Source: Sideroxydans lithotrophicus ES-1
GTDB lineage: Bacteria; Pseudomonadota; Gammaproteobacteria; Burkholderiales; Gallionellaceae
Assembly: GCF_000025705.1 (NCBI RefSeq)
Contig: NC_013959.1
Location: forward strand, 983,063-1,047,062
Reading direction: 5' to 3'
Length of the DNA: 64,000 nucleotides
Shown: one piece after another, positions 583 to 14,980 of the stretch
Layout: each line of letters opens with the position of its first letter
Position numbering within the stretch: position 1 is the stretch's first letter
Notes under the pieces: generated by a model
What the model saw: only the letters and a program-made list of their open reading frames with translations
Database searches by the model: none
Told to the model about the DNA's origin: nothing
Translations under genes and position numbers: made by a program

Positions 583-807
583 ATGGACATCAGACTTTAC
601 GGAACCAGGTTTTGCCATCTGTGTGAGCAGGCGGAAGCCATACTTCAAGCGATGGGGCTTGCAGCCGACTACATCGATATCGCGGACGATGATGAGCTGG
701 CGGAGAAGTACGGCGTGCGCATTCCGGTATTGCTGCGTATGGATACTGGGGGGGAACTGGGGTGGCCGTTCGATGCCGCGGCTGTTTCCCGATTTTTGGC
801 GTTATAG
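583..807 (+). CDS. Glutaredoxin family protein (DUF836-like)
   Basis: Small thioredoxin-fold protein of 74 residues if it starts at the ATG at 583. An in-frame ATG at 541 would add 14 residues with no family resemblance. It opens with a beta strand (MDIRLYGT) followed by a CHLC dithiol motif, then YIDI and the RIPVLL cis-proline strand expected of glutaredoxins. The likely role is thiol-disulfide exchange in the cytoplasm. It stands alone, convergent with proB, and a hairpin-rich repeat begins immediately after its stop. No strong ribosome binding site is visible. Confidence 0.8.
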   Translation: MDIRLYGTRFCHLCEQAEAILQAMGLAADYIDIADDDELAEKYGVRIPVLLRMDTGGELGWPFDAAAVSRFLAL

Positions 808-810
808 CGA

Positions 811-973
811 AACCAAGTTGTGGTTCCGACGTCACATTCGCTGCGCGAATATGAGTCTTCACCGCAACTTGGTTCAGTTGTTTTACAACAGAACCAAGTT
901 GTGGCTTCGGCCGTCGCTACGCGACTTAACTTGCTGCGCAAGTTAGCCTTCGCCGCAATCTGGTTTTGCTGCT

Positions 974-992
<19 letters not shown>
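811..992. repeat. Composite hairpin repeat between glutaredoxin gene and proB
   Basis: Three nested or adjacent inverted repeats: 811-820 pairs with 865-874; 865-880 pairs with 886-901 (15 of 16); 956-970 pairs perfectly with 978-992. The central block 901-955 has the order ggcttcggcc, a GTCGC-TAC-GCGAC stem (913-925), a TAACTTG/CAAGTTA stem, then gccttcgccg. The same block recurs at 13967-14024 next to argF with substitutions. The right end runs into the 3' end of proB. Confidence 0.75.
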
Positions 993-13903: not shown

Positions 13904-13966
13904 TTAGTTGTTGATCTTGCCCGGCAGTAGATATTCCATCAGGGCTTTCTGTACGTGCAAACGATT
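13904..13966 (-). pseudogene. Orphan second copy of the argF 3' end
   Basis: The minus strand reads NRLHVQKALMEYLLPGKINN and a stop. The intact argF ends NRLHVQKALMEYLLLGKVGN: 17 of these 20 residues are identical, while many of the DNA differences are silent. The copy lacks everything upstream and is separated from argF by a hairpin repeat (13967-14024). It looks like the old tail of a replaced or interrupted argF, or the scar of recombination with a related allele. Confidence 0.8.
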
Positions 13967-14024
13967 TTGGCTTCGGCCACCGCTACGCGGTTTAACTTGC
14001 TACGCAAGTTAGCCTACGCCGAAA
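13967..14024. repeat. Hairpin repeat between argF and its orphan tail
   Basis: Same block as at 901-955 next to proB: TTCGGC...GCCGAA outer arms (13972-14023), an inner ACCGC-TAC-GCGGT stem (13979-13991) and a TAACTTG/CAAGTTA stem. Relative to the proB copy the inner stem has changed from GTCGC/GCGAC to ACCGC/GCGGT, with both sides changed together so pairing is kept. Its right edge (14022-14033) is also the exact complement of 14103-14114 inside the argF coding end. Confidence 0.75.
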
Positions 14025-14050
14025 CAGGCTGCACATTCTTTCCGCTTCGA

Positions 14051-14980
14051 TTAGTTGCCCACTTTACCCAAGAGTAGATATTCCATGAGAGCTTTCTGCA
14101 CATGCAGCCTGTTTTCAGCCTCGTCCCACACCACGGACTGGGAGCCGTCGATGACCTCCGCCGCGACCTCTTCGCCGCGATGGGCGGGCAGGCAGTGCAT
14201 GAACAGTGCGTCCCTGGCGGCTACGCGCATCATGTCGCCATCCACCTGCCAGTCGGCGAAGTCCTTCATTCGTTCTTCGTTCTCCGCCTCGAAACCCATC
14301 GAGGTCCATACGTCGGTAGTCACCAGGTCCGCGTTCCGTGCCGCTTCCATCGGGTCGGTGAACTCCTCGTAATGATCTTCGCCGAACAATCCGGCGCGCT
14401 CCGGCTCTACCTCGTAGCCGGGCGGGGTGGAAACGTGGACGTTGAAGTCCAGGATCTCCGCTGCCTGCAGCCAGGTGTTGCACATGTTGTTGGAATCGCC
14501 GATCCAGGCCACGGTCTTGCCTTTGATCGAGCCTCGATGCTCGACATAAGTGTAGATATCTGCCAGCACCTGACAGGGATGATATTCGTTGGTGAGGCCG
14601 TTGATGACTGGGACGCGCGAGTTGCGCGCGAAGCGCTCGATGATGTCCTGTTCGAAAGTGCGGATCATCACGATGTCGCTCATGCGCGAAATGACCTGCC
14701 CGGCGTCTTCCACCGGCTCGCCGCGACCGAGCTGTGAATCGCGCGTGTTCAGGTAGATGGCCGAACCGCCGAGCTGGTGCATGCCGGCCTCGAACGACAG
14801 GCGAGTGCGTGTGCTGGCTTTTTCGAAGATCATTACCAGCGTGCGGTCTTCCAGCGGCCAGTATTTCTCATAGCGCTTGAAACGTTCCTTGATGATGCGG
14901 GTGCGCTCGAACAGGTATTCAAGCTCGTTGCGATCCAGATCCTTGAATTGCAGAAAATGCTTGATGGGTTTGCTGCTCAT
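14051..14980 (-). CDS. argF: Ornithine carbamoyltransferase
   Basis: Makes citrulline from ornithine and carbamoyl phosphate, the latter supplied by CarAB encoded further along. 309 residues from MSSKPIKHFLQF; an upstream in-frame start would add 13 unconserved residues. The carbamoyl-phosphate motif STRTR, the HPCQ loop and the HCLPAHRGEE ornithine loop are intact. The last 20 codons are duplicated 85 bases downstream. argD ends 2 bases upstream of the argF start, so the order of transcription is argD-argF-argG. Confidence 0.98.
   Translation of the reverse strand: MSSKPIKHFLQFKDLDRNELEYLFERTRIIKERFKRYEKYWPLEDRTLVMIFEKASTRTRLSFEAGMHQLGGSAIYLNTRDSQLGRGEPVEDAGQVISRMSDIVMIRTFEQDIIERFARNSRVPVINGLTNEYHPCQVLADIYTYVEHRGSIKGKTVAWIGDSNNMCNTWLQAAEILDFNVHVSTPPGYEVEPERAGLFGEDHYEEFTDPMEAARNADLVTTDVWTSMGFEAENEERMKDFADWQVDGDMMRVAARDALFMHCLPAHRGEEVAAEVIDGSQSVVWDEAENRLHVQKALMEYLLLGKVGN

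Follow-up and report, generated by a model that had tools for sequence, protein, structure and literature searches.

The argF gene of Sideroxydans lithotrophicus ES-1 probably carries an integrated gene-end cassette, which belongs to a family of small non-coding elements and whose insertion we infer to be guide-directed and to involve single-stranded DNA. The gene is encoded on the minus strand of the window (the whole stretch of 64,000 nt analyzed here), where its coding sequence, matched by the NCBIfam ornithine carbamoyltransferase model, extends from 14980 to 14051. The putative cassette, delimited by the spacing of a direct repeat and by its boundaries, is 147 nt long (13968-14114). Read along the minus strand, it starts with a new argF ending of 20 codons and a stop (14051-14114), which the tail comparison assigns to the element (tail A) and which opens with a 12-nt stretch, S (14103-14114, preceded by GA and defined by an inverted repeat). 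The stop is followed by a spacer, the left arm rc(S) directly before the core (14022-14033), a T-shaped hairpin core of 58 nt (13967-14024) and a terminal ...GCCA. The left arm was assigned from the inverted repeat, the family signature and the covariation in ftsW and proB units. Behind the cassette lies tail B (13904-13967, minus strand), the displaced resident argF ending with its own stop.

The second, diverged argF end beyond a hairpin had been described in the initial annotation and is confirmed here. The two copies form a 65-nt direct repeat (13904-13968 and 14051-14115) with 74% identity and a start-to-start distance of 147. The encoded endings, NRLHVQKALMEYLLLGKVGN and NRLHVQKALMEYLLPGKINN, agree in 17 of 20 residues and are each followed by TAA. 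Third codon positions hold 10 of the 17 DNA differences between them; as the initial annotation proposed, both copies did diverge as real argF tails. The initial annotation overlooked an exact 12-nt inverted repeat (14103-14114 vs. 14022-14033), by which the start of the new ending recurs as its reverse complement beside the hairpin. Of the 30 argF loci examined, three (the window's own, L017 and L025) have a second tail within 600 nt, and each of these bears a core; L029, the fourth core-bearing locus, has no second tail. At none of the 25 core-free loci with enough downstream sequence was a second tail found (the sequence of L028 is too short to judge), and the orphan tail is thus not a feature of relatives without the repeat. 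Comparison with the element-free relatives L026 and L027 identifies the stranded tail as the resident one, since both tail B and the stretch up to argG agree with them (KINN*, TAAATCGGAA, argG).

The same arrangement occurs at proB in the window (802-992, minus strand), with three proB-like endings. The proB ending (NLVLL*, stop at 974-976) is folded with its own reverse complement (956-992) into a perfect 16-bp hairpin. Behind it is the best-scoring core of the genome (901-958), followed by a decayed tandem unit (802-901) with endings at 901-883 and 820-802 and a weak core at about 820-867. The covariance model described below yields 12 core matches in this genome at E ≤ 2.6e-4; outside the window, cores are located at ftsW, smpB, accB and tRNA-Ser. 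In L201 and L206 (both G238), L202 (G177) and L203 (G225), three to six near-identical units stand in tandem at one gene end. In one Burkholderiales MAG (L232, L236, L240, L268, L280, L287, L303), bare cores occur one behind the other, linked by a minimal hairpin such as AAAC-GAA-GTTT, and could represent the element in its basic form.

Nine copies of the core share the T-shaped fold, with changes on both sides in eight of 20 pairs, and a covariance model was built from them. A search of 100 chosen loci with this model returned 122 matches, 118 of them distinct. In the alignment of these 118 cores, which was fitted to the model, 97.5% of the cells are paired and 15 of 20 pairs show double changes, while none of 500 shuffles was as good. 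The two internal loops read GNA in 270 and 261 of 274 distinct cores. GNA turns such as GCGAAGC are described as very stable in DNA (PMC6582339), and the loops may therefore favour a single-stranded DNA form of the core. No curated Rfam 15 family was found over the core in eight loci at E-values up to 10.

Within the family, 115 of 158 genomes, from all 15 genera, contain the core (E ≤ 1e-3). At the level of the order it was detected in 96 of 399 genomes and 46 of 158 genera (E ≤ 1e-5), and at that of the class in one of 274 genomes, the window's own. Among the matches listed from a pattern scan of named genomes, most titles are betaproteobacterial, with exceptions that include two Alcanivorax/Alloalcanivorax records and one MAG titled Blastocatellia. 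The Alcanivorax/Alloalcanivorax copies (L298, 5574-5635; L266, 5051-5112), of which that in L298 is located at the end of an acyl-CoA dehydrogenase gene, suggest a rare jump beyond the betaproteobacteria. A plasmid search with the core gave zero matches.

The anatomy of the units was analyzed on 139 of 173 core matches, leaving out same-place duplicates and matches below about 43 bits. It follows a recurring layout, ...GA|NAA(S)–gene end–stop–spacer–rc(S)–core–CCA|NAA(S')–second gene end. The left arm is the reverse complement of the upstream stretch S (score of at least 9 in 102 of 139 placed hits vs. 9 of 410 controls). To the right of the core, a second copy of S and its continuation follow, and this similarity is above chance level (score of at least 40 in 54 of 137 cases vs. 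2 of 137 mismatched controls). Repeated 3' ends across the same hairpin are thus found in many genes and genomes, which supports the bolder of the two options in the initial annotation, replacement of a gene's tail by the element that inserts there. All 117 distinct units have A immediately before S; this A is preceded by G in 103 and by C in the remaining 14 (tandem units, other CCA sites and four tRNA-type sites). The right-hand joint is exact across unrelated genes. The distance from S to the core is 21-93 nt overall and clusters by target (34 in most proB units, 58 in most ftsW units, 85-93 in argF), with three tandem units at 117-125 when counted from the first S. Among the units listed, distances above 125 nt between S and the core are limited to tandem units and a single weak match (L077, 518 nt).

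In 14 ftsW units, S and rc(S) are paired in 97.4% of the cells, and eight of 14 pairs are changed on both sides; the 16 proB units reach 97.7%, with nine of 16 pairs changed on both sides. Neither covariation score is reached by any of 500 shuffles; the number of further pair types in the ftsW and proB arms is unexceptional, being equaled by 153 and 74 of 500 shuffles. The untranslated arm therefore keeps its complementarity to the coding sequence as the latter changes. The cores also group by target gene, with 71.4 of 109 nearest neighbours belonging to the same gene compared to 12.1 after shuffling, a grouping that may in part reflect descent within related genomes.

An arm complementary to the start of its own unit and a site completed by the next unit is also the topology of integron cassettes, and an integron integrase is present in 86 of 158 genomes including that of S. 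lithotrophicus. Movement of the unit as an integron-type cassette by the resident integrase is nevertheless very improbable. The attC sites of the resident integron are of the ordinary GTTAGGC type and do not resemble the core, the joint is A|NAA and the arms are gene-specific, and cores occur in G103, G054 and G031, where TIGR02249 has no match at 1e-60. A GTTRRRY-type core site, as expected for attC, was not found at the joint, which reads (G/C)A|NAA in 117 of 117 units. A chromosomal integron with an integrase and a cassette array bearing ordinary attC sites was observed (388278-389222 of the S. lithotrophicus genome; L174, 9900-12500).

Besides argF, NCBIfam matches at or above the curated cut-off support ftsW, proB, metK, glmS, smpB, acs, serS, ccmE, dnaJ, dapD, pterin dehydratase, folE2 and accB as target genes. 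An nrdA fragment and the acyl-CoA dehydrogenase of L298 have strong scores below their cut-offs, and a recurring target ending in KLPLLYAGLTR has no NCBIfam match at 1e-20. At galU, the 5' end is the target and the element is reversed, as read from the sequence. Such placements, together with elements within tRNA copies, count against a selected, non-mobile transcript structure (a terminator or stability element). This explanation appears improbable, even though the elements mostly stand behind genes of the same direction and have long stems with covariation, since no T-run is apparent after the core in the sequences shown and two diverged tails would be left unexplained.

ARAGORN places a tRNA-Leu, tRNA-Ser, tRNA-Phe or tmRNA next to 11 of 13 loci tried. 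The inserts at tRNA sites are 78-86 nt long, gene-free and equipped with a small left hairpin of their own, and they split partial tRNA copies. When joined, the flanks rebuild the sequence of the intact neighbouring tRNA without a gap in L095, L192, L211, L242 and L043 (left match of 25 nt in the first four and 23 nt in L043; right match of 8-11 nt). They are less complete in L116 (7 nt left, 11 nt right) and L296 (10 nt left, 25 nt right), while the joints of L161 and L142 are not informative. No target duplication was found at the tRNA joints, and a MITE of a DDE transposon was rejected on this ground. Insertion of IS200/IS605 elements likewise makes no target duplication, and the tRNA joints agree with their mode of insertion 3' of a short motif. 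At tRNA-Leu, it is the gene downstream of the core that is intact, with an orphan half upstream, and the rebuilt end is therefore the 5' end; in some tRNA-Ser cases, too, the intact copy is found on the opposite side. The cassette boundary differs in these cases, which counts against the gene-end cassette as the best explanation. An extended element interrupts a tRNA-Ser remnant in L221 (7073-7133; 1627572-1627632 of the S. lithotrophicus genome). The sequence there reads GGGTTCGA, about 190 nt and then AATCCGCCCTCTCCGCC, and a similar stretch is present in L152.

A gap-free second tail is present in 65 of 112 coding loci, the other 47, in which it is decayed, gapped or absent, being left out of the tail counts. 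The 642 differences between the paired tails fall on codon positions 1, 2 and 3 in a ratio of 187/56/399, a pattern weakened by at least two of the 65 loci (L120, L217) that look wrongly framed. The in-frame stop is kept in 58 of the 65 second tails, and one internal stop was found. Given the third-position excess and the kept stops, each tail evolved as a coding sequence in a lineage of its own, and decay of the stranded one comes later. The same two features, together with the resemblance of tail A to tail A of other genomes, argue against a purely local origin, in which template switching or fold-back copying would have duplicated the gene end beside a hairpin and the copies would have diverged afterwards. 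In its favour, fold-back copying would produce the exact inverted repeat of S, spacer A is similar to the stretch between argF and argG, tandem arrays exist, and near-identical tails (identity 1.0) occur in L183 and L202. As an account of the whole arrangement such an origin is nonetheless unlikely, but it may explain how a cassette is first made.

For argF, tails were compared between 13 loci and 25 native genes. Tail A is nearest to another tail A in 12 of the 13 loci (exception L093). This closer resemblance of the element-borne endings to each other than to native ones indicates that a foreign ending arrived with the element and that the resident ending was left stranded. Tail B is nearer to native tails than to tail A of other loci in eight of the 12 loci that keep it; of the other four, one is tied and three are lower by 0.01-0.02, and in a separate comparison tail B was not always nearer to the natives than tail A. 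The GC3 of tail A (0.45) is below that of tail B (0.64), native tails (0.66) and the argF body (0.78), and identity of the argF body does not predict identity of tail A (r 0.12). The extra distance of tail A from native tails is confined to the closest group (0.745 vs. 0.808); where the body identity of the natives is lower, tail A is no farther from them than native tails are from one another. Averaged over all same-gene pairs, element tails are no more alike than the upstream gene (argF 0.77 vs. 0.84).

Such foreign-like tails could also result from plain homologous recombination, in which an argF allele with the hairpin already behind it replaced the 3' part of the gene. Same-locus transfer of this kind needs flanking homology only and no dedicated mobility. 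The edge of the foreign segment bears on this point. In 70 comparisons over nine loci, made with natives whose gene bodies are 0.86-0.93 identical, the element-bearing genes resemble natives up to the joint (0.89 vs. 0.88 over the final 20 nt) and are lower in identity beyond it (0.75, 0.81 and 0.70 vs. 0.78, 0.87 and 0.81). At the level of single pairs, L017 and L064, from different genera, show a step in identity from 0.80 to 1.00 at S; this was the sharp case among seven argF pairs, the other six being less sharp. Plain recombination of a foreign argF allele, the other option of the initial annotation, is disfavoured because the departure from the native sequence starts at the insertion point and because the right joint is precise in a large number of unrelated genes; the basic units also interrupt tRNA copies cleanly. 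We regard it as unlikely, though less so than a local origin. Considering the left edge, the tails and the grouping of the cores together, the unit acts like a cassette that passes from one copy of a given gene to another.

In the proposed mechanism, the element would move as folded single-stranded DNA, with the core as the part recognized by an enzyme and rc(S) as a guide able to pair both with its own S and with S' of the target. Cutting and joining at A|NAA would then transfer it to the same gene of a new host. The host gene would stay intact because the element carries the ending of that gene, while the resident ending would be stranded and decay. Joints after (G/C)A without target duplication, folded ends and an arm capable of dual pairing together fit an IS608-like guide-directed insertion. 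The first capture of a gene end in the left hairpin could be due to fold-back template switching, given that spacer A is similar to the gap between argF and argG. The best guess for the enzyme is an HUH nuclease of the IS200/IS605 or REP type acting in trans. Y1 genes (PF01797) occur in 122 of 158 genomes; they are absent from at least 20 core-bearing genomes, including the single-contig G044, and none is carried by the units, so that a Y1 HUH transposase does not accompany the core throughout. S. lithotrophicus has a REP-type transposase gene of its own (L221, 2754-3485; 73.7 bits, just under the cut-off of 80), located 3.6 kb from one core. Neither a core beside this gene nor inverted repeats of at least 8 nt in its flanks were found, and it therefore stays a mere candidate, differing from REP/RAYT systems, in which the transposase is flanked by its repeats. 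No autonomous copy or excised circle was seen, nor any gene-bearing unit among the units listed.

Several known systems share part of these properties. Integron cassettes are organized in a comparable way, their folded recombination site being completed by the unit that follows, whereas the element lacks an attC core site and has many genomic targets and gene-specific arms. Some genomic islands and prophages rebuild the 3' end of their target gene with a silently differing substitute. These are kilobases long and have one integrase per site, whereas the element measures about 80-150 nt and uses one core for many genes. IS608 chooses its target by base pairing between element and target, and targets of 12/17 nt have been engineered (PMC5934647). 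Folded ends and base-paired target choice are features that IS200/IS605 elements share with the family described here. Insertion beside a short motif, without target duplication, is likewise common to both. IS608 pairs 4 nt and encodes its transposase (PMC5934647), whereas the present arm matches 12-20 nt of one gene and the element carries a replacement gene end and no gene. REP/BIME-RAYT systems are likewise small palindromic DNAs with GNAG-like motifs, but REPs measure 20-40 bp and often exceed 100 copies (PMC3733652, PMC2817692, PMC8266576). The cores here are 58 nt long, with at most 12 clear copies in the S. lithotrophicus genome and the transposase absent from many carriers. BRE (Beta-proteobacterial repeat element), a repeat of Bordetella, is a mobile-looking sequence of about 90 bp, with units of 75-91 bp and a function given as unknown (PMC3110155). 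Both occur in Betaproteobacteria and in tandem arrays of variable number, some BRE copies overlap gene ends, and the gene-free units found here are 78-86 nt long; gene-end replacement, a guide arm and an insertion site are not mentioned in the accessible portion of the BRE description (PMC3110155). Compared by description only, the family probably overlaps BRE as part of the same superfamily. A search of the literature, largely among papers open without subscription, found no hairpin element that carries a gene end.

A mobile element can inhabit essential genes without damaging them by carrying the gene's own ending, and the family would explain the duplicated gene tails in many betaproteobacterial genomes and offer a possible account of BRE repeats. 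Tandem arrays of near-identical units could act as strain markers. As the last residues of housekeeping proteins such as ArgF, SmpB and FtsW may be swapped between species through these elements, the family matters for phylogenetics and annotation. It also suggests that DNA-guided insertion with long, gene-specific guides, engineered in the case of IS608, occurs in nature. We tentatively propose, at a confidence somewhat short of even, that these elements form a class of self-guided mobile DNA. Each would be a non-coding unit of about 80-150 nt with a guide arm that is directed against the coding sequence of a single host gene and evolves together with it. On reaching a new host, such a unit would home into that gene and supply a working substitute for the interrupted end, and would thereby persist in essential genes throughout the order without harm. 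If true, these would be the natural counterpart of engineered long-guide IS608 elements.
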